Assembly (NCBI RefSeq): GCF_040729435.1
Contig: NZ_CP160398.1
Coordinates: forward strand, 1,426,001 to 1,490,000
DNA from: Pseudomonas sp. HOU2
GTDB taxonomy: Bacteria; Pseudomonadota; Gammaproteobacteria; Pseudomonadales; Pseudomonadaceae
Direction: 5' to 3'
Length of the DNA: 64,000 bases
Position numbers and translations under genes: made by a program. Within the stretch, counting starts at the first letter, position 1; every line of letters starts with the position of its first letter. Of this stretch, positions 9,468-27,202 are shown one piece after another. A model generated the notes under the pieces. It saw only the letters and a program-made list of their open reading frames with translations. It was not told where the DNA came from and did no database searches.

Positions 9468-11462
9468 TCAAGGTTCGAGGCGGCGCTGCTGGTAAATCCA
9501 GTCGACGATTTCGCCGTCGGGGGTATAACCGCTGACGGTTTCGCGCAGAAGTTGACGAACTCGGGAATAGTCGTCCCTATCTACCGCAGCGAGCAGATCG
9601 TTCAGCTTGACCTTGAGTGCGTCCCAGGGAAGATGGTCTTCATTGGCTGTCATGATCATCGGATGGGGCGTGGCCGCCACGTTATCGCCGATCAACAACT
9701 CCTCGTAGAGCTTTTCACCGGGTCGCAAACCGGTGAATTCGATTGAGATATCACCCTGAGGATTGCGATCGGAACGAATGCTCAGTCCCGACAAATGGAT
9801 CATTTTCTCCGCCAGCTCGACGATTTTTACCGGTTCGCCCATATCAAGCACAAAGACATCGCCGCCCTGCCCCATCGAACCTGCCTGGATGACCAGTTGG
9901 GCCGCTTCGGGAATGGTCATGAAATAGCGGGTGATTTTCGGGTGTGTGACGGTCAGCGGGCCGCCGGACTTGATCTGGCTGTGAAACAGTGGAATCACTG
10001 ACCCGGAAGATCCCAATACATTGCCGAAGCGGACCATGGTGAAACGTGTCTTGTTGACCCGGGAAACATTGGCTTTGTCGCCGAACAGGACCGGAGCAAC
10101 CTCACGGCTCAGTGCCTGGAGTGTCAGCTCGGCAAGTCGTTTGGTGCTGCCCATCACATTGGTTGGGCGAACAGCCTTGTCGGTCGAGATCAGTACGAAG
10201 TTCGACACACCGGACTGCAATGCGGCCTGGGCAGTGTTCAACGTGCCAATGACATTGTTCAGCACGCCTTCGGCAATGTTGTGCTCAACCATTGGCACAT
10301 GTTTATACGCAGCCGCGTGATAAACCGTATCAACCTTCCAGGTCTTCATCACATCAAGCAATTTGTCCTGATGGCGGATGGAGCCAAGGATGGGCAGCAG
10401 GCGCACAGAAATTGATTCACGGGTGCAACGCGGCTCCAGCTCGGAAAGAATGCTGTAAAGATTGAACTCACTGTGTTCGAACAGTAGAAGCGTGGTCGGG
10501 CCTAGCGAAAATATCTGCCTGCACAACTCGGCACCGATCGACCCCCCGGCCCCAGTGACCATGACAGTCTTGCCCTTGATACAGCGTTCAAGCAGATCGG
10601 GCTGTGCTGGCACGGCATCGCGTCCCAGCAAGTCGGCAATGTCGACCTCCTGGATATCCTCGACCTTGACTCGGCCACTGGCCAAATCGGTGAAATTGGG
10701 TACGCTGCGAACATGGAGCGGAAAACCTTCCAGCATATTGAGGATTTCCCTGCGCCGAGCACGGGTCGACGATGGCAGCGCGAGAAGAATCTCCTGCGCA
10801 CCCGTCATGTCGATCATCTGTTGGATATGCTTGGGTTTGTAGACCTGAAGACCCGAAATGGAACGCTCGGCAATACCTGCATCATCATCAAGAAAAGCGA
10901 CCGGGCGCATGACGCGGCCCATGCGTAGTGCAGCCACCAATTGATTGCCGGCGACACCGGCACCGTAAATCGCAACCTTGGTAAGGCCGTCATCACGATT
11001 GGCAAAAGGAACATGCTGCGCTGCGGTAAACCAGTCGCCCATAAAGTACTGACGCATGAATAAGCGCAGACCGCCGATGATGACCAGGCTCAACCACCAA
11101 TAATTGAAGATGATGGAACGCGGGACAACGGCTTCGTGATTGCTGTACCAGAACACCACGAGGGCCAGGATCAACGACGAAAGGCTCACGGCCTTGACGA
11201 TCGCGATCAAGGCATCGTTGCCAAAGTAGCGCATGACTGCCCGATACATGCCAAAACGCACAAAGAGCGGAATCGCGATCAGCGGCGCTGATACGAACAG
11301 CCAAAAATGCGCCCTGAGAGGGTTGTACATATCGTCGACACCAAGGCGCACAATGAAGGCCAGCCAAAGCGCCAACCAAACGAGTACGACATCGGTGGCT
11401 ACCTGAATCAGCCTTTTCTTGCGGCGAGGTAACCCAAGTAACAAAGCCCGAAATCTATCCAT
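9468..11462 (-). CDS. wbpM: UDP-GlcNAc 4,6-dehydratase, membrane-bound (WbpM/CapD family)
   Basis: A 664-residue inner-membrane enzyme converting UDP-GlcNAc to the 4-keto-6-deoxy intermediate of QuiNAc/FucNAc synthesis. Four N-terminal membrane helices (to about residue 130) are followed by a first Rossmann motif GAGVAGNQ and a second, catalytic one GAGGSIGAELCRQ near residue 300. The SDR Tyr is replaced by Met in the M-x3-K motif (MGSTK), as is typical of WbpM. Length equals P. aeruginosa WbpM. The ATG at 11460-11462 was preferred over a GTG 13 codons earlier. It closes the O-antigen locus, as in other Pseudomonas. Confidence 0.95.
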   Translation of the reverse strand: MDRFRALLLGLPRRKKRLIQVATDVVLVWLALWLAFIVRLGVDDMYNPLRAHFWLFVSAPLIAIPLFVRFGMYRAVMRYFGNDALIAIVKAVSLSSLILALVVFWYSNHEAVVPRSIIFNYWWLSLVIIGGLRLFMRQYFMGDWFTAAQHVPFANRDDGLTKVAIYGAGVAGNQLVAALRMGRVMRPVAFLDDDAGIAERSISGLQVYKPKHIQQMIDMTGAQEILLALPSSTRARRREILNMLEGFPLHVRSVPNFTDLASGRVKVEDIQEVDIADLLGRDAVPAQPDLLERCIKGKTVMVTGAGGSIGAELCRQIFSLGPTTLLLFEHSEFNLYSILSELEPRCTRESISVRLLPILGSIRHQDKLLDVMKTWKVDTVYHAAAYKHVPMVEHNIAEGVLNNVIGTLNTAQAALQSGVSNFVLISTDKAVRPTNVMGSTKRLAELTLQALSREVAPVLFGDKANVSRVNKTRFTMVRFGNVLGSSGSVIPLFHSQIKSGGPLTVTHPKITRYFMTIPEAAQLVIQAGSMGQGGDVFVLDMGEPVKIVELAEKMIHLSGLSIRSDRNPQGDISIEFTGLRPGEKLYEELLIGDNVAATPHPMIMTANEDHLPWDALKVKLNDLLAAVDRDDYSRVRQLLRETVSGYTPDGEIVDWIYQQRRLEP

Positions 11463-11556
11463 AATGCTTTCGTTCTCATCAACTTTCGATACTAAGTCCA
11501 CGACTCAGGCAAATATCCCTGAAGAATACAGCACCCGTCAGCCGGATGCGCCATTG

Positions 11557-12588
11557 TCATGGTCCTTGAGTGGCGCCTTCCAGTGCACCGGCGTGATATT
11601 TAATAGCCAGCAGTACCAGCGGAACATAAGCCAACAGCACGCCGGCCAGCCCCGGAAAATCAAGCCGCACAACGCAGAATGCAATGGGCAGCAACCAGAA
11701 AAGATTAATCAATCCTACGCACAGCGTAACCGGCAGATGTTTACCCACCTGACGAGAGGCAAACTGATAAGCATGCGAACGATGAGCCTCATACACTTTG
11801 TCGCCCCGCAGCAAACGCCTCAAAAGAGTAAATGTCGCGTCAACGATAAACACTCCCATCAGGATCAACCACGGCCAGATTAACTCGGGTTGCTTGAAAG
11901 CGGCCTGAAGCGAGAGTCCGGCCAACACAACGCCGAGGAAGCCACTGCCAGCATCGCCCATGAATATCTTCGCAGGTGGGAAATTCAAAATCAGAAAGCC
12001 GGCAACACAGGTGGCGAGTAACAACGGCGCCAGGATCAGTTCGAAATGCTGGGTGATGCTGTACAGCACAACCATCCCCAGACAGGTTGTCACCGCTTCG
12101 ACTGCGGCGATTCCATCGATGCCATCCATGAAGTTGTAGAGATTCAGCATCCAGACCAGATAGACGGCAGACAGCACCAGCCCGATCACGCCCATATCGA
12201 GCGCAAAACCCGCCATCGTGATCGTTGGAAATGGACCGAGTGGAGCAATGACCAAAACGGCTGCTGTGAAGTGTCCGATCAGGCGCCAACGCGCAGCTAT
12301 ATGGCGATGGTCATCGATAAAGCCAATTATTGCGACGAGCGCCCCTGCTCCCGCGCTACTCATAAGCGTCGAACTATCGACCTTGGAGAAAAACCACGCA
12401 AGTGTCAGAAATACAAGATACGTCAATACAAACGCCACACCACCACCACGTGGAGTCGGTACTGAGTGGGAACTTCGCGAATTGGGGACATCCAGAAGTT
12501 TTCGGTGCAGCGCGTAATGACGCAAGTAAAGGGTCAGTGCAAACGACATGACCAGGATCAACAGCAACCACAAAAAATAATAATCCAT
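11557..12588 (-). CDS. wbpL: Undecaprenyl-phosphate sugar-1-phosphate transferase (WbpL/WecA family)
   Basis: A 343-residue polytopic membrane protein of the MraY/WecA family that starts O-antigen synthesis by moving a HexNAc-1-phosphate (GlcNAc, QuiNAc or FucNAc type) to undecaprenyl phosphate. Family motifs are present: TPRGGGVAFV, the Asp pair in IGFIDDHRHI, NFMDGIDG and GDAGSGFLG. It precedes wbpM in the same direction, the usual arrangement. The ATG at 12586-12588 is used; a GTG immediately before it is possible. Confidence 0.93.
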   Translation of the reverse strand: MDYYFLWLLLILVMSFALTLYLRHYALHRKLLDVPNSRSSHSVPTPRGGGVAFVLTYLVFLTLAWFFSKVDSSTLMSSAGAGALVAIIGFIDDHRHIAARWRLIGHFTAAVLVIAPLGPFPTITMAGFALDMGVIGLVLSAVYLVWMLNLYNFMDGIDGIAAVEAVTTCLGMVVLYSITQHFELILAPLLLATCVAGFLILNFPPAKIFMGDAGSGFLGVVLAGLSLQAAFKQPELIWPWLILMGVFIVDATFTLLRRLLRGDKVYEAHRSHAYQFASRQVGKHLPVTLCVGLINLFWLLPIAFCVVRLDFPGLAGVLLAYVPLVLLAIKYHAGALEGATQGP

Positions 12589-12705
12589 CACAACCCGTCA
12601 CCCTGTAATTCTCGTCGAGCAAGGACACTGTGTTTCGCAGTAATTGTGACTTCGCTGATATGTGCAAAGAAAACAGTTACTGGAAACACATTTATCTTTA
12701 GCCCC

Positions 12706-13881
12706 CTATACAGCGGCTTTTTCCACTTGCGGCACAGACTCCTGAACCGACACTTTCTTAGTCGAACGGGCATATTTCTGCATCAGTGGACGCTCAAAGA
12801 AATGCCAGGACACGGACGCCAGCGTAATGGTCAACACCAGAGCCAGCACTACAATTTGTTCAAAGCTCAGCCAATTCAGACGCTTGAGCGAAAGCAGCAC
12901 AGGAAGGTGCCAGAGGTAGATGCCGAAGGAGATCTCTCCCAGATAAGTGAGCGGCCACAACAGGCGCTTGACCTGGACGCTTGGGGTAATCACGCAGGCA
13001 GCAAAAATGATCATGCCAAATGACACCGCAATGAAGGTTCGGAACAACACGACCATCACCGGGATGTCCCAGAAACTGGCGTGTCTCCAATAGATGGAAA
13101 GCATCAAATAAAACACTGCGGCGGCGACGGCACATACGCCCAGGGCAACAGGCAGCTTCTGACAGTAGTCAAAAATCCTGTGCCCCAAGTCACTGCGAAA
13201 CAACTTTGCCATCACAATACCGATGGCGAACTCATCCAGCATCCCCGGCAACTGTGTCGAGACCAGAAAGATCTTGAAGGGTCCCATTGCATCAGGCTCA
13301 ACAAACCAGACCGTCCCCAACCGCCATGCCCAGGCCACCATCAAAAACGCAAACAGCACTTTCCAGATGCGAGCGACGTACAGCCACGGGGAAACCACCA
13401 CCATCAGTGCGTAAAACTGCATCTCGGTCCCCAGCGACCAGTTGCTGCCGTTTATTGCACCGTGAAAGGCGGGAAAGAGGTTGTGCAGGAAAAACAAATG
13501 CGTCAGCAGATTTGCCCAAAATCCCTGAAACATGACCTCAGGCATAATGAAAGCGATGAAAACGAGCATGGTCAGGTAATGAAGTGGCACGATCCGGGCG
13601 ATACGACGCCGGATGAAATCCGCGCGAAACCCTTGCGCACCGAACTTATCAATGCCTGAAAACGCTGCGAGGCCGATCACCAGACCCGAAATTACAAAAA
13701 AAAGGTCAACTCCCATCCAGCCAATTCGAAACCAGCTCAAAATACCTTCAGCTGGAAACGCCTTCCATGAGAAGTGTTCGATGATGTGATAAATCACTAC
13801 AGATATAGCTGCAAATCCCCTTAACAAATCGATCAAGGGAAAGTGCAAAGATCGACGCTGCTGTAAAATTTCCGTAGTCAT
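12706..13881 (-). CDS. Acyltransferase 3 family protein (probable O-antigen O-acetyltransferase)
   Basis: A 391-residue inner-membrane protein with about ten hydrophobic segments. The acyltransferase-3 signature is at the N-terminus: LIDLLRGFAAISVVIYHI, giving the conserved Arg and His, followed by GVDLFFVISG. Members transfer acetyl groups to sugars of O-antigens, exopolysaccharides or peptidoglycan. Placement inside the O-antigen locus between wbpL and the export operon suggests O-acetylation of the repeat (inference). It is separated from the upstream GT gene by a strong terminator, so it needs its own promoter. Confidence 0.88.
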   Translation of the reverse strand: MTTEILQQRRSLHFPLIDLLRGFAAISVVIYHIIEHFSWKAFPAEGILSWFRIGWMGVDLFFVISGLVIGLAAFSGIDKFGAQGFRADFIRRRIARIVPLHYLTMLVFIAFIMPEVMFQGFWANLLTHLFFLHNLFPAFHGAINGSNWSLGTEMQFYALMVVVSPWLYVARIWKVLFAFLMVAWAWRLGTVWFVEPDAMGPFKIFLVSTQLPGMLDEFAIGIVMAKLFRSDLGHRIFDYCQKLPVALGVCAVAAAVFYLMLSIYWRHASFWDIPVMVVLFRTFIAVSFGMIIFAACVITPSVQVKRLLWPLTYLGEISFGIYLWHLPVLLSLKRLNWLSFEQIVVLALVLTITLASVSWHFFERPLMQKYARSTKKVSVQESVPQVEKAAV

Positions 13882-14003: not shown

Positions 14004-15260
14004 TTAACCCAAGAGCTTGTTCTTCAAACCCCGAAGCCCCTGGTTGCGCAGGACTTCCCAGCCCTTCTTCGCCATCTCGCCACCGGTTCTCGGATTCATG
14101 ATGGATTGCTTCAGCAGGCCACCCAGGCGCGACCAGTCCACGGTTTCCATGCCACCACGAAAACCTGGGGTCAGCACTCGCGAGAACTCGAGCAACGCTG
14201 CCGCTTCTTGCTTCTTGTCGTGGAACTGCGGGTATTCGACCTTACCTTGAGTTTCCCACCAAGCCTTGTAACCGGTGGCATCGAACGGTTCCGGGAACGC
14301 ACGCTGCAAGTCGATACGCTCACGATAAACAGCGCGGGCGCCCTTGCTGATCGGAGTGCCATCAGAGTATTGACCGTAGGCCCACACTTCTTTGGCAAGC
14401 GGATCTTCCGCCAGCTTCTTGGTTTCATCGTCGTACCAGTTAACCAGCTTGCTGACTGCCGAGTTGGTACCGCCATTTTTCGCCGCCATGACGCGGTGAG
14501 CACCGCTGTCAAAACCGGTGAAGTGATAAAAGCCCAAAGGCTCGCCGTTCACCAGGTAAGTCCCGTTGTCATCAATAGTGATTTCACGAGTGGTCAGGTT
14601 CCATGGTGCGACGTTATGGCGAGGTGTACGCATGATCGCGACACCTTCAAACAGCGCAGGTACCAGGTCGATCCACTTTTGGTCGGTAAACAGGCCATTC
14701 GGAATGTCGGCACGGCAGAAGTGGTAAATCCGCTCACCCCACCAGTTGGCGAAGGCCTTACCGGTATCTGTTGCTGCAACGGCGGCGAAACCCAGGTTAT
14801 AGACACCGTGCTTCAGGCTGCAGATTTCGTTGTCCATCACTGCCGCAAGGCTGGACTCAGGTGTAATCTGGTGTGGCGTCAACACGACGTTGGATTCATC
14901 AAGTGCAGCAACGATGTCATCCAGGCGCGAGAAGGCGACGGTGTCCGGATCCAGATAGATAACTTTGGCGGTATCCGGCAACGCAAGCAGTCGTGACAAC
15001 GTGAATGGCTTGATGGCAGTGGCAAGCTCAACGATGGTGTGGCAGAACGCCCAGGCTTTCCAGTGTGGAATATTCAATTCGCTGAGAGGAATGACCTCGT
15101 CGAAAGGCTCGCTGCTCAGGTCAATATTGTCACGCAACTCATCAGCCAGAGCCAAATGCAGGCGCCATTCTGGATGGTGCTCACGCAGCGAATTGAACAA
15201 CATCCTCACTTTCGGAATGTAGTTGAATGCTGCGCTGGTGAAAACGTGCACTTGAGTCAT
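14004..15260 (-). CDS. Glycosyltransferase, GT8-like
   Basis: A 418-residue predicted cytosolic glycosyltransferase. It opens with a nucleotide-binding-like strand (MTQVHVFTSAAFNYIPK), has the DxD-type metal and nucleotide site VIYLDPDTVAF about residue 105, and YNLGFAAV and DQKWIDLVP farther on, which are typical of GT8-like retaining transferases. The C-terminal third has no recognisable domain. The ATG at 15258-15260 follows AGGAG with eight-base spacing. It is the last gene of the wzm operon, 11 bases after the GT4 gene. The sugar donor cannot be told from sequence. Confidence 0.82.
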   Translation of the reverse strand: MTQVHVFTSAAFNYIPKVRMLFNSLREHHPEWRLHLALADELRDNIDLSSEPFDEVIPLSELNIPHWKAWAFCHTIVELATAIKPFTLSRLLALPDTAKVIYLDPDTVAFSRLDDIVAALDESNVVLTPHQITPESSLAAVMDNEICSLKHGVYNLGFAAVAATDTGKAFANWWGERIYHFCRADIPNGLFTDQKWIDLVPALFEGVAIMRTPRHNVAPWNLTTREITIDDNGTYLVNGEPLGFYHFTGFDSGAHRVMAAKNGGTNSAVSKLVNWYDDETKKLAEDPLAKEVWAYGQYSDGTPISKGARAVYRERIDLQRAFPEPFDATGYKAWWETQGKVEYPQFHDKKQEAAALLEFSRVLTPGFRGGMETVDWSRLGGLLKQSIMNPRTGGEMAKKGWEVLRNQGLRGLKNKLLG

Positions 15261-15271
15261 TTCCAATACTC

Positions 15272-16894
15272 CTAAACCGAATAAATTCTTTTATGAAACA
15301 TTACCAGCTCACTCAGAACTGACGGCACGTCGAAGTTCTTGAGTATGAGCGCTTTTTGATAGCTGGCAAGACGTTCTGCGGGTGCCCCTAGATCAAAACT
15401 GGCTACGGGCAATTTCATTTCCATCAACTCTTGGACGACGTAAGAGAACGTTTCTGGCCAAATGGACGGGAACAGCATGACATTCACGCCCGAGGATTCG
15501 ATCAATTTTGCCAGATCGTCATGCTTGTAGTGGCCGGTTTGTGTAACCACCGACGCATCACACTGCGTCTCGATCGAACCGATGATGACAATCTTGATGT
15601 CAAGCTGCTGACTCATGATCTCTTCAGACAAACGCTGGACAATCTGAGCCCCTTTATGGAGCCCGATCTGCCCCACCACCCCGATTCTGAGTTCGGAGGT
15701 CTGGGAAGGTTTCACTGCGCCAAAATCGATGTATTCAACCACATGCGGCTTGACCACGGCGCGCGACAAATCAATAGATGGATAAGCCTTGCACAGCAGT
15801 TCCAGCGTGTTGGTGGAGAAGGTACGCACCTCATCCGCAACACTGAGGACAGTTCCCCACAGCGCTCGCCACTGATGCATATCTCGAGCACTGAACAGCG
15901 AAGTAAAACCGTTGTGGTTATTCAACAAGCACGACTGGCACTTGCTAAGGTCGGGAATACCACAATACTTGTTGGTGTCATCGATCAGGAAGTGTGAAGG
16001 ACACACCATGAAAAAATCGTGGACCAGCAACAGCAACTTTGAATTGAGCTCTTTTTTCAGTTCAATAATAAGTTGAGGGATCTCTTCCGAGCGTGCAAAT
16101 GAAACGCCCGTATTGTAGACGATCTCGTCAATCTTCAGCGACTTGCACAGCTCGATCAGAAACTCGTAGCCGGGAATCGACAATGTCTCACTCGTCGCGC
16201 CTTTCCTGACCATGAGGACATAAGACAATGTGGCAATATGGAAGCTGAAAATATAAACAACTTTCCCTTCCTGAATTTTTTCTGCGACCAGGCGTTCGCG
16301 ATAATGGTTGGCACCGCCACCCAGATCATGATCAATAATCAGGACCGAGGATTGCGAGCCCGTAACACCCAACTGATCGCGTGCGTTCGACACATCATTT
16401 AACGAACCCGAAGGACGGTTACGAGTATATCGCTGGATTTTCTCGACCAACAATTTAAACTTCAACTGCCTGATCAACGACAAGCCACGCTTGAAAAACG
16501 CCCAAAACTGCTTCGCCAATGGCAACGCATTGGCTGACGTTTTCTCTAAAGAAATTAGTGAGGAAACCGAGACAGGAAGCTCTACCGAAGCACCATCGGC
16601 AAACTCAATCAAAAGAAATAAGTTATCCCCATTTTCGGCATCGGCTTTACAACTACCGTACATAACAAAACCGGAATGCAAGGCATTTTGCTTGCCGGAA
16701 AAATGAGAGGAGACATCTTCCCTCGGATTCCCGTAGCTAGCCGGAATTGCTTGAAAAGAGCCATTTTTGGTCTTGACCGCCAGTTTAACGCCTACGATCA
16801 CCTTCTCTTCGTGAAAAGCCCAGCCAAATCCAAAATAAGTCTGGTTCCGCAGTACTAACGAATCAACGGACCAATGTAGCTTTTCCACTATCAA
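15272..16894 (-). CDS. Two-domain glycosyltransferase (N-terminal beta domain + GT4)
   Basis: A 540-residue protein. Residues 1 to about 115 look like a beta-sandwich module of unknown role (motif NALHSGFVMYG), and residues about 185-540 form a GT-B glycosyltransferase with VLIIDHDLGGGANHY at the start of the N-lobe, RIGVVGQIGLHKGAQIV at the start of the C-lobe and the GT4 motif PSIWPETFSYVVQELMEM near the C-terminus (the E-x7-E region). Its start codon overlaps the stop of the 957-residue upstream gene by 4 bases (ATGA), so translation is probably coupled. It probably adds one residue type of the O-polysaccharide. Confidence 0.85.
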   Translation of the reverse strand: MIVEKLHWSVDSLVLRNQTYFGFGWAFHEEKVIVGVKLAVKTKNGSFQAIPASYGNPREDVSSHFSGKQNALHSGFVMYGSCKADAENGDNLFLLIEFADGASVELPVSVSSLISLEKTSANALPLAKQFWAFFKRGLSLIRQLKFKLLVEKIQRYTRNRPSGSLNDVSNARDQLGVTGSQSSVLIIDHDLGGGANHYRERLVAEKIQEGKVVYIFSFHIATLSYVLMVRKGATSETLSIPGYEFLIELCKSLKIDEIVYNTGVSFARSEEIPQLIIELKKELNSKLLLLVHDFFMVCPSHFLIDDTNKYCGIPDLSKCQSCLLNNHNGFTSLFSARDMHQWRALWGTVLSVADEVRTFSTNTLELLCKAYPSIDLSRAVVKPHVVEYIDFGAVKPSQTSELRIGVVGQIGLHKGAQIVQRLSEEIMSQQLDIKIVIIGSIETQCDASVVTQTGHYKHDDLAKLIESSGVNVMLFPSIWPETFSYVVQELMEMKLPVASFDLGAPAERLASYQKALILKNFDVPSVLSELVMFHKRIYSV

Positions 16895-19764
16895 TTCCCT
16901 TCACTTTTTTTAATAGCATCGAGCTCAGCCAAACGAGAAATTGCCAATTCCTCCGCAAAAGCCTTGGCATCTTCTGTAAGTTGTAGCCTTTCCCTTAAAG
17001 CTTGATTCTCTGCATAGAGCCCAACAATCTGATCCTGCTTTTCAGTATTCTCCTTGAGTGCATTGAGTTCATCCAATCGAGAAATGGCCAACGATTCAGC
17101 ATAAGCCTTGGCATTTTCTGTCAGTTGCAACTTCTCTGTCAGTGCACGAAGCTCTTCACCAAGTTTTTTGGACTGCTCTACACTTTTTACATTGAGTGCA
17201 TCAAGCTCGCCCAAGCGGGAAACGGCCAGAGCGTCAGATTCGTCTTTCGCGCTTTCAATCAGACTCAACTGCTTTCTCAGATCATCATTTACCGTGCTAA
17301 GGAAATGGATTCTATCCATTGAGCTGACGTTGGCGTTTAATGCATCCAGCTGAGCCAAGCGGGAGATCGCCAACGATTCTGCGTAGCTCTTGGCGTCTTC
17401 CGTAAGCTTTAACTGATCCTGAACCTTTTGAATTTCAGAACATAGGCTGTTTATCTCATCCAGGCGTCCGAACGCCAGATTCTCAGCGTACTTCTTAGCC
17501 GTCAGCGTTTCGTTGAGGCGAGCGTGGAGAGAGACCTTTTCAGCGCTGCACTCTTGTAATTCCAGCGAAACTCTATTGAATGCACTACGCAATGCATTTC
17601 GTGCAACTTCGTCCAACGCCGACAGAATAAAACCTTCGGAAGCTACAGATGTCTTCGATGAAATATTCAATGCCGAAGCACACTGAACGGCACCATCGAT
17701 GATTTCTACAGAATCATTCAACGAGAACATAAAAGGCTGATCGATATTGCCAACAAACTCCAACATATCAGAGTTCAAACACTCAAACGCGAGCTTGACT
17801 CCCTGTTTCCACATGCTGATCGCTTGTTCACGCTCACTAGCATTCCAGTGAATCATACCGGCATGATAGGCCGCACTGACCTGCTTTGTTCCAAGTGTCG
17901 GCGTAATACTGGAAATCTGGCTATTCACAACACTTTTGTAATATTGCAGCGCTCGCTGTTGAAAATTCGCTCGGTGGCAAAATCGAGCTTGAAGATAATT
18001 TAACGAAACACACCACCTGCGAACATGTGGATTATCCGACTGATCATTTTTCAGATATACATCAACCGCGTTACTCCAATCCAACAGGTCTACTGCTGAA
18101 TCTGCCTCGAAGTATCTCCACCCAAGAATTGCCAATGCTGCACCTTGATCCGCGCTGGCATCACTCGAACATGAGAGTATCTGTTCCGATAATTTGAACA
18201 GTTGCTCAGCATTCTTTATCCTCCATGGAATTTCCACCACGGAATGGACAATCCACGGATTTTCGTAATACCGAGCGAAATCAACAAGGTGAGTCTTGCC
18301 ATTAAATTTCGGCAAGTTTCTCTCTTCATACGGCGCAGAATACTTTACGAGGGGACTTCTGAAAAACGAGAGAATCCAGTTACTCTCAGCTGTCTGCGCC
18401 TCAAGTGCAGCAATGCTCAGACTTGATTCAAAAAGCAGCCCGTTGGCCTCAAGAGCTGATTTATTCTCGGGGGAAATATCCCCGTCAGCACACGAATCGT
18501 TCGAACACCGAACCAGAAGACGACCACCTGGCCGTAGCTTCTCCACTGCAAGAGCAGTGAGAAGCGTAAGTCCTGCCGAATCCACAACAGCATCGATGCA
18601 AACGATCGTATCGATGTCACGACTTGACTCGGGAACAACGCCTTTTAGAGCAACTGTATCAATGGCGCCATCGGTCAATACCGAGAGAGGGATCTCACTG
18701 AATACGAAGTTTCGTGCAATCGAGTGGTTTTTAAACAAACGCAGACTTGCATTCGAACCTAAAAACAGAACGTCTGACAGAGGCGAAAAATACTTCGTTG
18801 CCAATTCCTTATAGGCTTCGATATCCAGCAGAGACTTAGGAACGCCACTGTCACGCAGGTTCACAAAAGTGCTCAATGGATTGGCAAGCAATTTGTGCGC
18901 GAATACCGATTTGTATGCCTCGGGATTCTCCATGGCACGGTGAGCCATGTGGACGATATCCTCTCCGGCCCACATTGCGAACAACCCGCCCAACTGCTCC
19001 AACGTGCCCTCAATCTTCCAGGTATTGGAAGGCAGGGCGATAAATGGAGTGTTCGCGAGTAAAGCCAGATAGACGGCGTGGTGGCGACCTGTAATAACAA
19101 GCTTCGCTGCGCGAAACTTTCTTAAAGTATCACGCCAGTCATTTACACTGTTTTCATATTCAAGCGGAAAGTAAACACAATCAGCAGAAAATTCGACGTT
19201 GGCTCTTTCCAGAACCTGCCTTACATCCTCTCGAGACAAATGACAGTCGGTGATAATGACCTTGTCACGATAGTTTTCGTCAACACCAGGGTTGAACCGT
19301 GCTCCAACAATCGAATCGGATACAATTCGCGAGTCAATGCCCAGGCTAGACAAGTATCTGAATGAGTTCACCTCTCTGACGGTCAAGTCATCAAGCTTTG
19401 CCAGGACATCGAGATAAACAGGTACATCCTGCAAGACCGCATTCACCAAAACGGTGCGCTTGCCCAGCTCTTGAGCATAGGCGAGGATGGCAAGCAAATG
19501 AAGGCCTGATCCGTGATGGATCGTGCCTTCACCATTGACCACCACAGCATCCACTGCAGAAATTTCTGCAGCCAGGGCACCATTTGCAAGAAAATCACGG
19601 GTTGATTTTTCGTCACCCTGCCACAAATCATGAAACTCATTGACGAAGTGTCGATATTCGACCACTGCCCCCACTTCCGAGAGCATTCTGTCGTGAGCAT
19701 CCGACACGGCAAGGCAACCTATATGGTGATAGCTGCTGGTGTCATTGAAGATGGCAACTTTCAT
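16891..19764 (-). CDS. Polysaccharide pyruvyltransferase-domain protein with TPR-like and coiled-coil regions
   Basis: A 957-residue, multi-part protein. Residues 1-300 resemble the polysaccharide pyruvyl transferase family (NGEGTIHHG at 77-85, GRHHA at 226-230, PFIALPSNTWKIEG near 240). Residues about 330-420 resemble a SAM methyltransferase fold but with a degenerate glycine motif (VLFLGSNASLRLF; later EKLRPGGRLLVR). Residues about 520-670 look like TPR-type helical repeats. Residues about 730-957 are a long coiled coil containing five copies of an AK-x2-AE-x-LA-x2-RL-x-EL-x-AL motif. It overlaps wzt upstream and the GT4 gene downstream by 4 bases each. A role in capping and measuring the O-chain before export is likely by context (inference). 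Base composition is clearly more AT-rich than the flanking housekeeping genes. Confidence 0.8.
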   Translation of the reverse strand: MKVAIFNDTSSYHHIGCLAVSDAHDRMLSEVGAVVEYRHFVNEFHDLWQGDEKSTRDFLANGALAAEISAVDAVVVNGEGTIHHGSGLHLLAILAYAQELGKRTVLVNAVLQDVPVYLDVLAKLDDLTVREVNSFRYLSSLGIDSRIVSDSIVGARFNPGVDENYRDKVIITDCHLSREDVRQVLERANVEFSADCVYFPLEYENSVNDWRDTLRKFRAAKLVITGRHHAVYLALLANTPFIALPSNTWKIEGTLEQLGGLFAMWAGEDIVHMAHRAMENPEAYKSVFAHKLLANPLSTFVNLRDSGVPKSLLDIEAYKELATKYFSPLSDVLFLGSNASLRLFKNHSIARNFVFSEIPLSVLTDGAIDTVALKGVVPESSRDIDTIVCIDAVVDSAGLTLLTALAVEKLRPGGRLLVRCSNDSCADGDISPENKSALEANGLLFESSLSIAALEAQTAESNWILSFFRSPLVKYSAPYEERNLPKFNGKTHLVDFARYYENPWIVHSVVEIPWRIKNAEQLFKLSEQILSCSSDASADQGAALAILGWRYFEADSAVDLLDWSNAVDVYLKNDQSDNPHVRRWCVSLNYLQARFCHRANFQQRALQYYKSVVNSQISSITPTLGTKQVSAAYHAGMIHWNASEREQAISMWKQGVKLAFECLNSDMLEFVGNIDQPFMFSLNDSVEIIDGAVQCASALNISSKTSVASEGFILSALDEVARNALRSAFNRVSLELQECSAEKVSLHARLNETLTAKKYAENLAFGRLDEINSLCSEIQKVQDQLKLTEDAKSYAESLAISRLAQLDALNANVSSMDRIHFLSTVNDDLRKQLSLIESAKDESDALAVSRLGELDALNVKSVEQSKKLGEELRALTEKLQLTENAKAYAESLAISRLDELNALKENTEKQDQIVGLYAENQALRERLQLTEDAKAFAEELAISRLAELDAIKKSEGN
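16912..17499 (-). repeat. Tandem coding repeats (46-48 codon spacing) in the coiled coil
   Basis: Five copies of a 19-residue motif begin at protein residues 756, 791, 839, 885 and 933 (spacing 35, 48, 46, 48). Examples are AKSYAESLAISRLAQLDAL and AKAYAESLAISRLDELNAL. The DNA of the copies is also clearly similar, indicating internal duplication. The repeats lengthen the coiled coil of the pyruvyltransferase-domain protein. Confidence 0.9.
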
Positions 19765-21122
19765 GCTGAATGCTCTATAAGTTTTTGTTCAAAACCCAAA
19801 TCGCAAATGCCGCCAACAACATGTTCTTGCTGTTTGATTGCCACAGTAAAGAAGGCAGCTTCGTCCATCCAATGCAATATCTGCTGCGACCCATAATACA
19901 TATCATGCTCACGAGTCACCGTCGCCTGTACCTCGTAGAGGTTTGCACCAAGCGTGCAGGCAGCATTAAACTCCACCGCAAACTCCGTACCTGCGCTGAA
20001 GTTCTTCAACCAAATAATTTCAGACGCGTCAGCATTCTTCAGTGATGCACGCATATCATGATTCAATGTGCCCCATGAAGTAATCTTGACGCCTTCCTTG
20101 TTTCGAATACGAAATGCAACGTTTACATTATTCAGATCAACGTTCGCCCGCAGCGAGACCTTGATCGTGAGGCGCTCGCCAATATAAAAATGCGAGACCT
20201 CAACACCTTTGGAATCGAGGATTTTCACACCCAGAATTTCAGCTTCCAGATCACCAAAAGACTTGATCTTGTTATGTTTCTCCGGAAGTTCAACACCTTT
20301 GACCTTTGCCTCTTTAACAGCCGCTGTAGTGGCTGCCGCATTGGCCGTCAGCTTTGCACCGTATTCAAGAAAGCTCTGGCGTTCATCCTCATGAAGCATC
20401 CGACGATACTCCAGAACGACGTCAGATGATTTACCCCACATCTTCCTCACCCCTTTGTGCAGAAGCAAAGCTCGGTGAGTCAGGGTGCGAACGCTTTCCT
20501 GATCGTGGGAAACGAAAAGTAGCGTGGTGCCATCAGAAATCAGCTTTTCAATCTGCTGGAAGCAGCGCTTTTGAAACAGCGCATCGCCAACCGCGAGCGC
20601 CTCGTCAACGATAAGGATGTCCGGAGTGACCTGGACCTGTACGGCAAACGCCAAACGAACCAGCATCCCGCTCGAATATGTTTTAACCGGCTGGTTAAGA
20701 TGATCACCGATATCTGCGAAAGCAGCGATTGCGTCAAAACGGTCTTCGATTTCTTTCTGGGTCAGGCCGAGGATCGTGCCATTCAGAAAAATATTCTCAC
20801 GACCGGTAAAATCTGGATTGAACCCCGAGCCAAGTTCAAGCAACGCAGCAATCCTGCCAAATGTCTGCACGCTGCCGGTGGTCGGGTTCAGTGTGCCGCA
20901 AATCATTTGCAAAAGCGTTGATTTGCCCGAACCGTTTCGGCCGAGAATACCAATCGACTCTCCTCGCTTGACCTCAAACGAAAGATCGCGAAGCGCCCAA
21001 AATTCTTTGTAATACTGCTTTCTCACAGGAGAAAGCATTTGAAGCAAGCGGTCGCTGGGCTTGTCGTAAATGTGATAGCACTTGCTCAGGTTCTCAACTT
21101 TGATCGAGATATCAGAGGACAT
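19761..21122 (-). CDS. wzt: O-antigen ABC transporter ATP-binding protein with C-terminal sugar-binding domain (Wzt)
   Basis: A 453-residue ATPase of the polysaccharide exporter Wzm/Wzt. Walker A is GRNGSGKST, the signature motif is YSSGM as is usual for Wzt, Walker B is ILIVDEALAVGD and the switch His is in FVSHD. Residues about 300-440 form a beta-sandwich typical of the carbohydrate-binding domain that reads the end of capped O-chains. The ATG at 21120-21122 overlaps the wzm stop by 11 bases, showing translational coupling; the stop overlaps the next gene as ATGA. Confidence 0.95.
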   Translation of the reverse strand: MSSDISIKVENLSKCYHIYDKPSDRLLQMLSPVRKQYYKEFWALRDLSFEVKRGESIGILGRNGSGKSTLLQMICGTLNPTTGSVQTFGRIAALLELGSGFNPDFTGRENIFLNGTILGLTQKEIEDRFDAIAAFADIGDHLNQPVKTYSSGMLVRLAFAVQVQVTPDILIVDEALAVGDALFQKRCFQQIEKLISDGTTLLFVSHDQESVRTLTHRALLLHKGVRKMWGKSSDVVLEYRRMLHEDERQSFLEYGAKLTANAAATTAAVKEAKVKGVELPEKHNKIKSFGDLEAEILGVKILDSKGVEVSHFYIGERLTIKVSLRANVDLNNVNVAFRIRNKEGVKITSWGTLNHDMRASLKNADASEIIWLKNFSAGTEFAVEFNAACTLGANLYEVQATVTREHDMYYGSQQILHWMDEAAFFTVAIKQQEHVVGGICDLGFEQKLIEHSA

Positions 21123-21930
21123 CGGCAAACCCCTTTCTTGTTTTTTGGAACCAGGCGAAACCCAGCCAGCATACGACGACGGAGACCGCCATGCAGATTG
21201 AGTAGAGTCCCCAATCAATACCTTGCCCAAAAAATAATACGCCTCGCGCCAACTCAATCACTGGGGTCAGAGGGTTCATGAAAAGCAGGCCGCGGAATTC
21301 TTCGGGAATGGCCGTTGCCGGATAGAAGATCGGCGACAAAAACATCAGCGTCGTTGTAATAATGCCGATCAGTTGCGATATATCACGCAGAAAAACCCCG
21401 GACGCAGCGAGCAACCAGGAAAACCCCATCACAAACAATATGAGCGGCAAAAAAACCAGAGGAATAAGAAATACGGTCAAATGAGGAATACCAAAAAGCA
21501 AGGCATAGGCTGCAATCCAGACACTTAAACTGATCAGCGCATGAAATAGAGCCGCCCCCATACTGACCCAAGGCAGAATCTCAAGAGGAAAAATAACTTT
21601 CTTTACATAATTTATATTACTCGTAATCAATAACGGTGATTTATTGATACATTCAGCAAAAAAGTTATAAACCAGCAGACCGGCAAACAGTACCAGGGCG
21701 AACTCGACTTTAGAGTCACCTCCTCCACCCCAGCGCGCCTTGAAAATAACACTAAACACCAGTGTATACACACTCAACATAAATACCGGGATCAGGAATG
21801 ACCACAGGATACCCATCATGGAGCCGCGATAACGCCCAACAATTTCGCGTTTGACCAAAGCCTTGATAAGTCCGCGATTTTTCCAGAAACTACTGACCAT
21901 ATTCAGGGGCGAAATTGAAAACTTTTCCAT
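21112..21930 (-). CDS. wzm: O-antigen ABC transporter permease (Wzm)
   Basis: A 272-residue inner-membrane permease of the ABC-2 type with about six hydrophobic segments and the N-terminal motif LIKALVKREIVGRYRGSMMG seen in Wzm/KpsM proteins. It exports undecaprenyl-linked O-polysaccharide together with Wzt. The ATG at 21928-21930 is used; a GTG three codons upstream is also possible. It is the first gene of the export operon and is preceded by a 485-base AT-rich gap that must contain its promoter. Confidence 0.95.
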   Translation of the reverse strand: MEKFSISPLNMVSSFWKNRGLIKALVKREIVGRYRGSMMGILWSFLIPVFMLSVYTLVFSVIFKARWGGGGDSKVEFALVLFAGLLVYNFFAECINKSPLLITSNINYVKKVIFPLEILPWVSMGAALFHALISLSVWIAAYALLFGIPHLTVFLIPLVFLPLILFVMGFSWLLAASGVFLRDISQLIGIITTTLMFLSPIFYPATAIPEEFRGLLFMNPLTPVIELARGVLFFGQGIDWGLYSICMAVSVVVCWLGFAWFQKTRKGFADVL

Positions 21931-22415
21931 TACCAGCACACCTCAGCATCGCTCGGGAGATTTCCTGCACCATCTGAAACGATGCGTAACTGCCTAACGT
22001 TAGTTTCCACAATGATCGACTCGCAAGCCCCAAAATGTTCTGCTACACCGTTCATAAAAATCACAGAATCATCCACTTGACCAAACTTCATTTTAAATCC
22101 ATCTCATTGACTAGAGAAAAGCGAATGATTAGTTAGCCATGTGCAAAACAGCACTTCCATGACAACTTCCAAAAACCACTCCACTTTAACTCCACCACAT
22201 TAATCCTTTAAGTAAGATTGGTAATGCACCCCAAGAGGAAATATTTCGACTCAAAACTCAACGGGATCCACTACTCTCAAGCACAAAAACAAATATAAAA
22301 ATACCCCCCATTATACATCACTACAAAAAAAAGATACAGCCCCAGTAATTATTGCTAACACCTGCAACCTAACAACATTCCAACCGCACTTCCAAAGCTC
22401 CATATCAATAATAAT
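21931..22415. other. AT-rich intergenic gap upstream of wzm, no gene seen
   Basis: This 485-base gap has long A/T runs (for example around 22280-22340 and 22400-22430), unlike the GC-rich surroundings. No open reading frame with a ribosome-binding site was found, and no JUMPstart/ops motif. It lies between two minus-strand genes and should hold the promoter of the wzm operon. The composition suggests a junction of transferred DNA or an H-NS/MvaT-type silenced regulatory region (inference). Confidence 0.6.
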
Positions 22416-23375
22416 TTATTGTTGATTCTCAAGAAACTTTAGTGCAGTCCTCTTTAACTCCACCTCTGGAGAATAAGGCGCAGACCAACCGAGAGCTGTC
22501 TTTGTTGCCGTAATGTCAACCTGCAAAGAACCACAAACTCGCTGTATGACAGAGTGCATTCCACACAATCTCAAAACCGCCTTGAGCACCACTTCGGGAA
22601 AAGGTATCAGCAACGCCTTGCCACCGATTGTCTCTCGCAGGCAACGCAACAGTTCGCTAGTGGACAAATCTCTGCCATCGCTGACCAGGAAGGTCTGATT
22701 CCTGGCACCAACGTGATCAACACAGGTGACAATCAGATCCACCAGATTACTGATACCCACCAAACTTCTACGATTATTGATTGCGCCCATCGGCAACGGC
22801 AACCGCCTCGTCAGCACGCTCATCATCCGGTAGAAATTTGCCTTTACACCCGGCCCATAGACAAGCGGAGGCCTGATAATGACAACCTCCATCCCGGTCT
22901 CTTTACCGATACTCTTCAGCGCCTCTTCCGCCTCGAGCTTTGAAATGCCGTACGCATCAAGAGGCGCCGGGATGTCATCGGCCTTGAACGGATGACCTGG
23001 CAGCGTCACCTCACCGTTAACCTTGATCGAACTGATAAATATGAAGCGTCTGACCCCTGATTGCGCCGCTTTTCGCGCCAGCTTCACAGTACCGTCGACG
23101 TTTACTTTTCTAAAGGCTGCGAGCGCATCTGGTGCTGCCTCTTTCATGACATGCACGCGCGCGGCCGCGTGAATCACCGCATCTATATTCTCGAACTCGG
23201 GCAGCTCATTCGAACTGGCAAGATCGAACATTACCGTGGGGCACAATCCCGACAAGCACGATGCCCTTCTGACGACAGCTACCGGGGTCAGCACTTGATC
23301 AAGCAATAATCGGAGAACGACCGCCTCACCGACAAAGCCGGTAGCACCTGTAACCAATACTCTTCGGGAAGTCAT
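22416..23375 (-). CDS. wbpV: NAD-dependent epimerase/reductase (WbpV-like)
   Basis: A 319-residue extended SDR with Rossmann motif GATGFVGEA at residues about 8-16 and catalytic Tyr-x3-Lys in YGISKLEAE. It is most like the 4-reductases (WbpV / WreQ type) that convert the keto product of WbpM to UDP-QuiNAc, and also resembles general UDP-hexose epimerases. AGGAGG lies nine bases before the ATG at 23373-23375, and the start overlaps the GT2 stop by 4 bases (ATGA). The product assignment rests on similarity and on the presence of wbpM and wbpL in the same locus. Confidence 0.75.
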   Translation of the reverse strand: MTSRRVLVTGATGFVGEAVVLRLLLDQVLTPVAVVRRASCLSGLCPTVMFDLASSNELPEFENIDAVIHAAARVHVMKEAAPDALAAFRKVNVDGTVKLARKAAQSGVRRFIFISSIKVNGEVTLPGHPFKADDIPAPLDAYGISKLEAEEALKSIGKETGMEVVIIRPPLVYGPGVKANFYRMMSVLTRRLPLPMGAINNRRSLVGISNLVDLIVTCVDHVGARNQTFLVSDGRDLSTSELLRCLRETIGGKALLIPFPEVVLKAVLRLCGMHSVIQRVCGSLQVDITATKTALGWSAPYSPEVELKRTALKFLENQQ

Positions 23376-24289
23376 CTTGCCTTCCCTCCTAACAGAGAAG
23401 TTAACCAACAGGTAAAGAAAAACAACACTTTGTCACGCAATCGTCGCCGACAACTTGCAGCACTCAGTGATAGTTTGAGTAACTGCCAACGCCCCAGCTT
23501 CGACCAGCGCCTAACAAAAGGATCCGAATCCAGCCCCACCAACCGCACAATCAATCGCACCTGATCAAACCACCAACCATCATGGATCGTTTTGTATCGA
23601 GCAATCAGATTGGAAATTCCGGTATTCGCGCCCACCTGATTGTGCTCGTGCTGCCGATATCGCATAGAAGGCAAAGGATCTATGAACCAGCGATATCCAT
23701 GGCTACGCGCAAAGGCGTAACAGAACCAGTCATGCAAAGTGACACCCTGCAGCAAATGCCAGTTGGCCTGCATTGATTGCTTCAGGTGTTGCGCCAATGC
23801 GCGACTGAATACATAGGTACAACCTGGACCTGCCGCCTCGAATATATGATCCCAGGCAACCTGTGGCTGCGCCTTATTCAAAACAACAGTTCGCCCATCC
23901 GACCAAAAGGCCGTGACATTGCTCGAATAAGCGGAGTATTCGCCGGTTGCAAGAATATCGGTGGCGCGCTTCAGTTTTTCAGGAAGCCAAATATCGTCCT
24001 GATCGGAAAACCCGACGAAATCAAACGCAGTCAGATCGACATCACGAACCAAGCGATAGAAATTACATGCAGCGCCGCCATACCGATCACCGGTAGGCAG
24101 CACTGTCACACAATCATGTCGGGCGGCAAGATCTGCACACCAGGCTTCAGTACCATCCGTTGAGGGGTCGATACTGATAAAGAGGTTGAGCTCCACCCCT
24201 TGCTGGCAAAGAATCGAAGCGACCTGCTCTTCGATCCATGCCATGCCATTGTACGCAGCAAGCAAAATTGCAACTTTAATGGGTCTCAC
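23372..24289 (-). CDS. Glycosyltransferase family 2 (rhamnosyltransferase-like)
   Basis: A 305-residue GT-A enzyme: nucleotide-binding start KVAILLAAYNGMAWIEEQV, DxD-type site GFSDQDDIWLP about residue 95, and a C-terminal basic, hydrophobic tail that may contact the membrane. Similar proteins are called rhamnosyltransferases, which fits the rmlBDA genes immediately upstream. The start is a GTG at 24287-24289 with only a weak AGGG site. It is co-transcribed with the rml genes (59-base gap after rmlA) and coupled to the WbpV-like gene. Confidence 0.85.
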   Translation of the reverse strand: MRPIKVAILLAAYNGMAWIEEQVASILCQQGVELNLFISIDPSTDGTEAWCADLAARHDCVTVLPTGDRYGGAACNFYRLVRDVDLTAFDFVGFSDQDDIWLPEKLKRATDILATGEYSAYSSNVTAFWSDGRTVVLNKAQPQVAWDHIFEAAGPGCTYVFSRALAQHLKQSMQANWHLLQGVTLHDWFCYAFARSHGYRWFIDPLPSMRYRQHEHNQVGANTGISNLIARYKTIHDGWWFDQVRLIVRLVGLDSDPFVRRWSKLGRWQLLKLSLSAASCRRRLRDKVLFFFTCWLTSLLGGKAR

Positions 24290-24348
24290 CGCTATACCAG
24301 CCCTGAATTACCCCTAAAGAAGGGCGCACTGAATTTTCACGAGCAAAT

Positions 24349-25239
24349 TCAGATATGACCTGTCTCCAACAGTTGCTGCAGATATTGCCCGTAACCGGTT
24401 TTCTTCAAGCGCTCTGCCTGTTGCGCGAGCTGGACAGCATCAATCCAGCCATTGTTGTAGGCGATTTCTTCCAGGCATGCGACCTTGAAACCTTGCCGAT
24501 GCTCAATCGTATGCACAAAGTGACTGGCCTCAAGCAGCGACTCGTGAGTCCCTGTATCCAACCATGCGAAACCGCGACCAAGAAGCTCAACCTTCAAGGA
24601 ATCCTGGCTCAAATAGGCCCGATTTACGTCGGTGATTTCAAGCTCACCACGCGGAGAAGGCTTGATTCCCTTGGCAATCTCGACGACCTTGTTGTCATAG
24701 AAATACAAACCGGTAACCGCATAGCTCGATTTGGGCTTGGCCGGTTTCTCTTCAATGCTCAGCGCCCGACCTTGCGCATCAAACTCCACGACACCGAAGC
24801 GCTCGGGATCAGAAACATGATATCCAAACACTGTGGCCCCCTCCTGCTGAGAGCAGGCTGAGCGCAGATTGTCGGAGAAATGCTGACCATGAAAAATATT
24901 GTCGCCCAGAATCAGGCAGCACGGATCATCACCGATGAACTCTTCACCGATGATGAACGCCTGAGCAAGACCATCGGGGCTTGGCTGCTCTGCGTAAGTC
25001 AGCTTGATGCCGTATAGACTTCCGTCTCCCAGCAACTTGCGGAAGCTTGGCAAATCATCGGGCGTGGAAATGATCAGGATTTCACGCATGCCGGCCAGCA
25101 TCAGCACCGACAAAGGATAAAAGATCATCGGCTTGTCGTAGATGGGCAGCATCTGCTTGGAAACGCCGAGCGTCAGTGGATGCAGGCGTGTGCCGGAACC
25201 GCCGGCGAGAATGATGCCTTTACGATTTGTCGTGATCAT
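24349..25239 (-). CDS. rmlA: Glucose-1-phosphate thymidylyltransferase
   Basis: A 296-residue enzyme making dTDP-glucose from dTTP and glucose-1-phosphate, the first step of dTDP-L-rhamnose synthesis. The nucleotidyltransferase motif [11 protein letters not shown] and [11 protein letters not shown] are in the first 40 residues, and ILGDNIFHG is near 110. The length is standard. Its ATG overlaps the rmlD stop by 4 bases. Confidence 0.97.
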
Positions 25240-26129
25240 TTATTCAGAACTTCCATAATCATTCGGGTTACACCACTTTGCCAATCCGGCAAGTGTAGAG
25301 AAAAGTTGTCGCGCAGTTTCTGAGTATCCAGTCGGGAATTCAGAGGGCGGCGCGCAGGAGTCGGGTAGGCGGTGGTATCTATTGGATTGATTGCCTTGAC
25401 GGCAAGCTCCTCACCGTTAGCCTTGGCAAGGTCAATCACATGACAGGCATATCCGTGCCATGAGATTTCGCCGGCAGCGGCCAAATGATAGAGACCTGCC
25501 AACTCAGGGCGGAGCAGAACCCGCTGAATAGCCAATGCTGTCACGTCAGCAATCAGGTCAGCACCTGTTGGAGCACCGATCTGGTCGGCGATGACACCAA
25601 GTGTCTCGCGATCCTTGGCCAGACGCAGCATGGTCTTGGCGAAATTATTGCCACGCGCTGCATAGACCCAACTTGTACGGAAAATCAGGTGCCTGCAACC
25701 CGAGGCGACGATCGCCTGTTCGCCTGCCAGCTTGCTGGCGCCATAGTGATTGACCGGCGATACCGCGTCGGTCTCCCGCCAGGCAGCCAAGCCTTCACCA
25801 CTGAACACATAGTCGGTGGAATAGTGAATCAGCCACGCGTTCAAAGACGCAGCTTCCTGCGCCATAACCTTCATGGCGAGACCGTTCACGCGATCAGCCA
25901 ACTCGATTTCGGACTCGGCCTTATCAACGGCAGTGTAAGCCGCCGCATTGACAATGATGTCGGGCTTGACCTGACGAATCGTATTACGCAGCGCGTCAAG
26001 GTCAGACAGATCACCAGTCAGACCGCCAGCCGGGTGGCGATCCAGAGCAACCAGTTCGCCCAGAGGAGCCAGGGAGCGTTGCAGCTCCCAGCCTACCTGG
26101 CCGTTTTTTCCAAGTAGAAGGATTTTCAT
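25236..26129 (-). CDS. rmlD: dTDP-4-dehydrorhamnose reductase
   Basis: A 297-residue SDR performing the last step of dTDP-L-rhamnose synthesis. Motifs: [10 protein letters not shown] (cofactor), STDYVFSG, and YGASKLAGE with the catalytic Tyr/Lys. The ATG at 26127-26129 is inside the ATGA overlap with the rmlB stop; the longer upstream frame is a read-through of rmlB sequence and is not used. Confidence 0.96.
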
Positions 26130-27202
26130 GCTTTTTTTGAACGGTCTGCGTAGTTTTGATCGATCCACTGCTGATAGCTGCCGCTCTTCACGTGAGCAAC
26201 CCACTCAGTGTTCTGCAAATACCACTCGACAGTCTTGCGAATACCGGTTTCGAAGGTTTCTTCCGGCGTCCAGCCAAGCTCACGTTGAATCTTGCTTGCA
26301 TCGATCGCGTAGCGCTGGTCATGGCCAGGGCGATCCTGCACATAAGTAATCAGACTTGCGTGCGGGCGATGCGCGGAATCAGGACGAAGCTCGTCAAGCA
26401 GCGCGCAAAGAGTATGGACAACCTCAATGTTCTGCTTCTCGTTGTGACCACCAATATTGTAGGTCTCGCCAATGACACCTTCAGTTACAACCTTGTACAG
26501 CGCACGCGCATGGTCTTCGACATACAACCAGTCGCGAACCTGATTGCCTTTGCCATAGACCGGCAATGGCTTGCCTTCCAGTGCATTGAGAATGATCAAC
26601 GGGATCAACTTCTCGGGAAAGTGGCAAGGGCCGTAATTGTTCGAGCAGTTTGTCACCAGTGTCGGCAAGCCGTAGGTGCGAGCCCATGCGCGAACCAGGT
26701 GATCGGAACTGGCCTTGCTGGCCGAGTACGGGGAACTAGGCTGATAAGGTGTAGTTTCAGTGAACAGATCTTCCGGACCTTCCAGATCACCATAAACTTC
26801 GTCAGTCGAAATGTGATGGAAACGGAAGCTGGCTTTACGCGCATCATCCAGTGCAGCCCAATAATGGCGAGCCGCCTCAAGCAATGTGTAAGTGCCGATG
26901 ATGTTGGTCTGGATGAACTCGGAAGGCCCGGAAATAGATCGATCAACATGAGATTCTGCGGCCAGATGCATAATCGCATCGGGTTGATGCTCACGCAGAA
27001 CACGATCAATCTGATCACGATCACAAATATCAACACGCTCAAAAGCGTATCGCGAGTCATGACTGACCTCAGCCAAAGACTCCAGGTTACCGGCGTAGGT
27101 CAGCTTATCAACGTTAACGACAGAGTCGGTGGTGTTGGAGATGATGTGACGGATGACTGCCGAGCCGATGAACCCGGCGCCGCCGGTAACTAGAATTTTC
27201 AC
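26126..27202 (-). CDS. rmlB: dTDP-glucose 4,6-dehydratase
   Basis: A 358-residue extended SDR converting dTDP-glucose to dTDP-4-keto-6-deoxyglucose. Motifs: [10 protein letters not shown] at the N-terminus, [11 protein letters not shown] about residue 135 with the catalytic Asp-Glu, and [12 protein letters not shown]. The start is a GTG at 27200-27202. It is the first gene of the rmlB-rmlD-rmlA-GT2-wbpV unit; the usual fourth gene rmlC is absent. Confidence 0.97.

Follow-up and report, generated by a model that had tools for sequence, protein, structure and literature searches.

The question raised by this locus is what a 957-aa protein with a pyruvyltransferase-like head and a long helical tail does beside the ABC exporter of an O-antigen cluster, and whether its tail may set the length of the exported chain. 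The gene was found in Pseudomonas sp. HOU2 within a stretch of 64,000 nucleotides of contig NZ_CP160398.1 (positions 1,426,001 to 1,490,000), here called the window, and is the only match to itself in the 6.05-Mb single-contig genome. A preliminary description had placed a candidate capping and length-measuring protein at 16891..19764; these coordinates are correct, and the strand is minus. We consider it probable that the protein is the terminator and coiled-coil ruler of an ABC-dependent O-antigen, itself probably rhamnose-containing, with a head that caps the chain, most likely with a pyruvyl group, and a coil that controls length unit by unit. PMC numbers below stand for the passages cited from those papers, and statements drawn from them hold for these passages. 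In minus-strand order (rmlB-, rmlD-, rmlA-like, GT2, epimerase, wzm, wzt, ruler, two glycosyltransferases, acyltransferase, wbpL-, wbpM-like), the cluster reads as follows:

22416 to 27202, minus strand: rmlB-, rmlD- and rmlA-like, GT2 and epimerase genes of the same cluster, named from Pfam matches
21112 to 21939, minus strand: wzm, ABC-2 membrane subunit (Pfam)
19761 to 21257, minus strand: wzt, ABC ATPase with a Wzt_C carbohydrate-binding domain (Pfam), overlapping the ruler gene by ATGA
16891 to 19764, minus strand: putative ruler/terminator gene, 957 aa, an intact ORF with ATG at 19764 and stop at 16891-16893
15272 to 16894, minus strand: 540-aa glycosyltransferase (Glyco_trans_1_4, Pfam), next gene after the ruler, with a TTGA overlap
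14004 to 15266, minus strand: GT8-like glycosyltransferase, Pfam score below the cut-off, with a fused counterpart in Burkholderia perseverans
9468 to 13881, minus strand: acyltransferase, wbpL-like and wbpM-like genes at the cluster end (Pfam), the latter two names being our presumption

The ATGA overlap and the Wzt_C domain bear out the earlier claim of coupling to a Wzt with a sugar-binding domain, and the protein is encoded together with Wzm and such a Wzt as expected of a WbdD-type system. Upstream of the cluster lies a 98-aa ORF (27694-27990), which we take to be IHF beta. Given this ORF, the cluster is probably the ihfB-wbpM OSA site of PMC13101481. The genome's two rmlC-like genes (PF00908 matches) lie beyond the window. 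In the 540-aa glycosyltransferase, approximately the first 397 residues are without a Pfam match. The parts of the 957-aa protein are:

18865 to 19764, minus strand: GT-B-like PF04230 domain of HxGC type, putative capping head (residues 1-300)
18355 to 18837, minus strand: methyltransferase remnant without SAM motif I (residues 310-470; hhalign, motif absent)
17599 to 18267, minus strand: TPR-like helical bundle common to the methyltransferase-type family (residues 500-722; homology and AlphaFold model)
16903 to 17592, minus strand: long helix, putative coiled-coil ruler (residues 725-954; AlphaFold model)

The pyruvyltransferase-like nature of the head, as first described, was upheld: PF04230 (PS_pyruv_trans) is the sole Pfam match at E up to 1, covering residues 59-245 and profile positions 59-277 of 280 with a score of 53.6 bits against a gathering cut-off of 25.3. 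The RxxxS/T and H motifs of PMC10629545 are present as R130..S134, R227 and H229; these PEP-side residues have aligned counterparts in a second, canonical PF04230 protein encoded elsewhere in the genome (L035:165-1310, genome C1:1213068-1213940, outside the window), and R130, R227 and H229 are invariant in 23/23 sequences. The acceptor side is different. Characterised pyruvyltransferases carry an NxGD motif (PMC10629545), and the canonical paralogue has NSGD, whereas the head reads HxGC, as do 16/16 sequences; H14 and C17 are invariant in 23/23 and the glycine is found in at least 90%. The alignment to the paralogue is gapped here, and the equivalence of HxGC to NxGD rests on its location where the first helix begins. 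A pyruvyl cap, as first proposed, is thus plausible from family membership and the retained PEP-side residues, while the acceptor motif departs from that of known enzymes.

Structural comparison of the head with pyruvyltransferases gave a GT-B fold match, but one tied with UDP-GlcNAc 2-epimerases and glycosyltransferases. A sequence search of solved structures returned no match for the 957-aa protein and none for a stand-alone head relative, and profile searches included no pyruvyltransferase among the matches listed (60 of 239 and 60 of 100), which were mostly SAM-dependent methyltransferases, with TPR designs as well in the second. The link of the head to WbbZ and Pvg1p therefore rests on Pfam membership, fold and motif order. 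Rather unlikely, in our estimate, is a terminator and ruler with a cap other than pyruvate, where the HxGC domain would be a divergent GT-B enzyme adding a terminal sugar or other group. The replaced acceptor motif with its invariant H14 and C17 would suit such an enzyme, as would the tied fold of the modelled head, and chains of Klebsiella O4/O12 are known to be capped with Kdo (PMC11231755); against it, the head belongs to PF04230 by sequence and retains the R, R, H and K of the PEP side.

Stand-alone relatives of the head also argue for pyruvate. Frames of 355-378 aa were detected in 11/397 other genus genomes, and HxGC occurs in all three that were read (G358, G333, G164). Two stand-alone HxGC genes, L036:8005-9081 and L037:8947-10029 (the latter adjoined by L037:10032-11801), lie in what we take to be core-LPS loci with an adjoining carbamoyltransferase-like gene. 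Their products could possibly be core pyruvyltransferases such as P. stutzeri OX1 would require, its core bearing a carbamoyl group along with two pyruvyl ketals (PMC6801904); this core fits the two loci, OX1 not necessarily being among their genomes. In P0017, P0019 and P0022 an HxGC-type head is followed by a long second part without methyltransferase, a different fusion partner for this head; in a scan of the latter two, Capsule_synth (PF05159) clears its cut-off in P0022 and falls short of it in P0019.

Behind the head, residues 302-957 are homologous to a large family of proteins built of methyltransferase, TPR bundle and coil (MT-TPR-coil; P0031-P0050 plus 448 matches). In hhalign, seven members of the pyruvyltransferase clade aligned with 13 methyltransferase-type proteins from residues 302-956 to 159-810 at E 1.5e-97, with homology running over methyltransferase, TPR and coil. 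What was first described as a degenerate methyltransferase segment is therefore a real homologue that has lost SAM motif I: DxxCGxGxG is found in 16/17 of P0031-P0047 and in 0/8 pyruvyltransferase-clade proteins (P0001, this strain's protein, and P0004-P0010). Methyltransferase Pfam models match P0011, P0013, P0031 and P0044, and none of the five clade members scanned (P0001 at E up to 1; P0005, P0007, P0009 and P0010 at E up to 0.01). The clade thus appears related to the family by descent and not by methyltransferase activity, and the segment is apparently dead. A repurposed remnant that still contributes to capping, to which the fold of the Klebsiella O4 Kdo transferase (GT137) might point, is improbable in our judgement. 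Its alternating strand-helix order is kept in the AlphaFold model, some residues are conserved in 7/7 clade members, and ORF7-O4 is itself only partly methyltransferase-like (PMC11231755); however, motif I is lost in all eight sequences, and conservation is uninformative at a mean identity of 70%.

The next segment was first reported as TPR-like helices. The AlphaFold monomer places helices across residues 504-722, and the homologous P0048 has a TPR_8 match above the cut-off, though no TPR model matches the ruler protein directly in Pfam (E up to 1). An unrooted tree of this region, built from 30/32 sequences after removal of the gapped P0020 and P0026, joins the seven clade members with support of 1.000 and places P0011-P0016 with P0018, which also bear PF04230, in another group (0.915); P0011 and P0013 hold both PF04230 and a methyltransferase with the SAM motif. 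Given these two separate groups, either the PF04230 head was joined to the TPR-coil platform repeatedly or several lineages have lost it.

The following counts from genome searches are lower bounds on occurrence. The full-protein search of 398 genus genomes, with at most two candidates per genome scored among the matches listed, gave the own genome and three with the TPR part only. Neither here nor in the genus search for stand-alone heads was the PF04230-TPR fusion found among the matches listed for the 397 others; it is present in strains outside that sample. A search of 144 relatives gave the own genome and one stand-alone head (G403), and a search of 369 class genomes with the TPR part gave the own and one other. 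In 3/3 other Pseudomonas loci a TPR-family gene lies directly after a Wzt with Wzt_C, the membrane subunit being confirmed by Pfam in L009 only; these are three of the four distant loci inspected. Divergence of Wzt_C was considered as a sign of cap recognition and rejected: against three methyltransferase-type Wzts, identity is 45-51% in the carbohydrate-binding domain and 65-72% in the ATPase, and faster divergence than the ATPase is normal. One 706-aa MT-TPR relative from the class search (L012:8238-10358) is not beside an ABC exporter; its neighbours are presumably flagellin- and FliD-like genes, and the TPR platform is therefore not exclusive to O-antigen export.

The five related motifs first described in the coil were reproduced exactly, LAxxRLxEL occurring at residues 763, 798, 846, 892 and 940 with spacings of 35, 48, 46 and 48, which divide the coil into units:

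17416 to 17520, minus strand: fixed first unit u1, 35 aa (motif spacing)
17272 to 17415, minus strand: unit u2, 48 aa (motif spacing)
17134 to 17271, minus strand: unit u3, 46 aa (motif spacing)
16990 to 17133, minus strand: unit u4, 48 aa, its counterpart doubled in strain H1h (motif spacing, unit comparison)
16894 to 16989, minus strand: fixed last unit u5, 32 aa, up to the C-terminus (motif spacing)

Within the last 237 aa the motif occurs five times, whereas 10,000 shuffles averaged 0.0022 occurrences and never gave more than one, a lenient control in which the pattern was built from the same repeats and widened to recover two P0006 copies; conservation across species is the better evidence. 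The AlphaFold monomer has long helices at 725-813 and 820-954, with mean pLDDT of 44-80 per 10-residue block, and a unit of 46-48 residues would span approximately 7 nm if continuously helical (0.15 nm per residue). Hydrophobic periodicity peaks at 3.48, yet stays within the 99th percentile of shuffled sequences, and no significant heptad signal was obtained in 4/4 proteins tested. Of the coiled coil first described, the long C-terminal helix with its five motifs thus stands, while the coil itself is not proven by sequence and any oligomer would be a prediction.

Counting the repeats in homologues, as the preliminary description had suggested, gave a regular series. Nine proteins were compared: P0001, its 99% neighbour P0004, the one match in named genome contigs, from Pseudomonas sp. 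H1h, and P0005-P0010; named close homologues come from P. syringae, P. rustica and P. cucumis. All nine begin their first motif at 763-768 and their second 35 residues further on, and the distance from the last motif to the C-terminus is constant. Between these fixed ends lie units of 46 or 48 residues: none in P0009, one in P0008, three in P0001, P0004 and P0006, four in H1h and P0005, and five in P0007. Coil length thus differs by whole units in 8/9 proteins, and P0010, with spacings of 62 and 32, breaks the rule. In H1h, the 12/12 other proteins of the operon are equal in length to those of HOU2 and 97.5-100% identical, and its ruler, 94.6% identical over aligned residues, has exactly one extra 48-aa unit. 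In the unit tree, u4 of H1h is sister to u5 (0.809), the two sharing 88% identity, and u3 of P0006 is sister to u4 (0.911), with 79% identity. This identity and placement make the two pairs look like separate recent tandem duplications; the H1h DNA likewise has two 144-nt copies, 86% identical, in agreement with the protein repeats.

Fixed units were also sought, and rejected, in 19 MT-TPR-coil proteins with a C-terminal glycosyltransferase (P0048 and P0051 among them apparently being the same protein): the distance from TPR end to glycosyltransferase start ranges from 191 to 561 aa and does not keep to multiples of 7 or 14. Fixed coil units therefore seem limited to the pyruvyltransferase clade. 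By eye, the C-terminal coil of P0045 (Burkholderia sp. TSV86) seems to have a large block repeated near-identically in tandem, which would be another recent length jump in the family. No earlier account of unit-wise coil length variation was found in the passages returned by a full-text search of open-access literature.

A ruler would need a polymerase at its far end. Some MT-TPR-coil family members carry a C-terminal glycosyltransferase, and the GT8-like product of HOU2 aligns over 414 positions, with 58% identity, to residues 760-1172, the C-terminal part, of P0044, an MT-TPR-coil protein of Burkholderia perseverans with a GT8-like domain after its coil. Fused in Burkholderia and encoded two genes downstream here, this protein makes the best candidate for the polymerase module expected where the coil ends. 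In Klebsiella O7 the polymerising glycosyltransferases likewise follow the coil in the same protein (PMC11231755). The weak likeness of the 540-aa glycosyltransferase to the fused ones of P0048 and P0049 (E 4e-6 and 6e-4) was not used as evidence.

The mechanism that we favour is modelled on WbdD, the coil of which is a ruler (PMC5082667, PMC3482155) that keeps the capping sites approximately 20 nm from the polymerase, and changes in it alter modal length (PMC5082667). By analogy, the TPR bundle and C-terminal coil would space the head at a fixed distance from the polymerising glycosyltransferases, with the GT8-like and GT4-like products of the next genes docking at the coil end. Only chains that reach the head would be capped at the non-reducing end, most likely with a pyruvyl ketal from PEP, and capped chains would then be exported by Wzt through its C-terminal domain. 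If the last sugar is 6-deoxy, as rhamnose is, such a ketal could not be of the 4,6 type. Coil length, and hence modal chain length, would evolve in whole-unit steps, as units of 46-48 aa are gained or lost. Homology, synteny and the unit-wise changes in coil length lend good support to a terminator and ruler with a cap-reading Wzt, as in the first description.

A precedent for another arrangement is WbbZ, which pyruvylates Klebsiella O1 chain ends without setting length (PMC10629545). On that model the head would pyruvylate repeat units or only diversify ends, length being a balance of transporter and polymerase and the coil a scaffold. We regard this as very unlikely: the O1/O2 transporter is without a carbohydrate-binding module (PMC11231755), whereas the Wzt of HOU2 has Wzt_C, and the coil family, like the glycosyltransferases fused to it, agrees with a ruler.

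As a terminator and ruler, the protein can be set beside several known systems. WbdD of E. coli O9a and Klebsiella O3 has a catalytic head and a long C-terminal coil, both putative in the HOU2 protein, and shares with it the ABC exporter and a Wzt with carbohydrate-binding module. Its head is a methyltransferase plus kinase, no TPR bundle is reported for it, and its C-terminal amphipathic membrane helix and polymerase site have no counterpart seen here, as no tail extends past the last unit. The Klebsiella O4/O7 terminators are coiled-coil rulers, that of O4 with a TPR bundle (PMC11231755). ORF7 of O4, compared by description and not by sequence, has the same order of head, TPR-like bundle and coiled coil but a Kdo transferase (GT137) as head. 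ORF6 of O7 pairs a terminator head with a coil and has glycosyltransferase after the coil, as in P0044, P0048 and P0049; its head is a methyltransferase-kinase, and in HOU2 the glycosyltransferases are separate genes. WbbZ and Pvg1p of fission yeast share the pyruvyltransferase fold and PEP-side residues and act on chain ends, as predicted for the ruler head, yet they lack a coil and have NxGD. The closest relatives, the MT-TPR-coil proteins, are homologous from methyltransferase region to coil and adjoin wzt in three Pseudomonas loci; their head is a methyltransferase, and most of those listed lack PF04230. They may include epsE_4 of P. viridiflava, an approximately 4.5-kb gene in an operon with tagG/tagH whose deletion removes high-molecular-weight LPS (PMC13250502); we infer its homology from operon and length.

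A pyruvyl cap with length set by repeat number had first been presented as a possible new version of the known capping device. Pyruvate-based termination in Pseudomonas has already been proposed, with P. protegens and Burkholderia vietnamiensis named as unproven candidates (PMC10629545); in the part of the P. protegens OBC3 literature searched, mention was found neither of pyruvyl nor of a coil. The useful additions are the natural quantised length series and the glycosyltransferase fusion, and the dependence of chain length on repeat number is a sharp prediction. Tentatively, and at somewhat less than even chances, we propose a modular ruler in quantised steps, where heads would be swapped on one TPR-coil platform (methyltransferase; methyltransferase and pyruvyltransferase; pyruvyltransferase on a dead methyltransferase) and 0 to 5 units would set length increments.

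According to the passages cited, direct tests of a molecular ruler have so far been made with altered WbdD coils in E. coli O9a. The natural series of 0, 1, 3, 4 and 5 units, including two near-identical operons, makes the ruler idea testable without engineering. The family also illustrates a way in which different caps might be exchanged while the ruler platform is conserved. When found in Klebsiella O4, the TPR bundle was said to be undescribed elsewhere; it now falls within a large family. If the modular ruler is true, strains would hold a simple genetic dial for O-antigen length, and given that the Pseudomonas O-antigen matters for tailocin sensitivity (PMC13250502), such a dial could be under strong selection.
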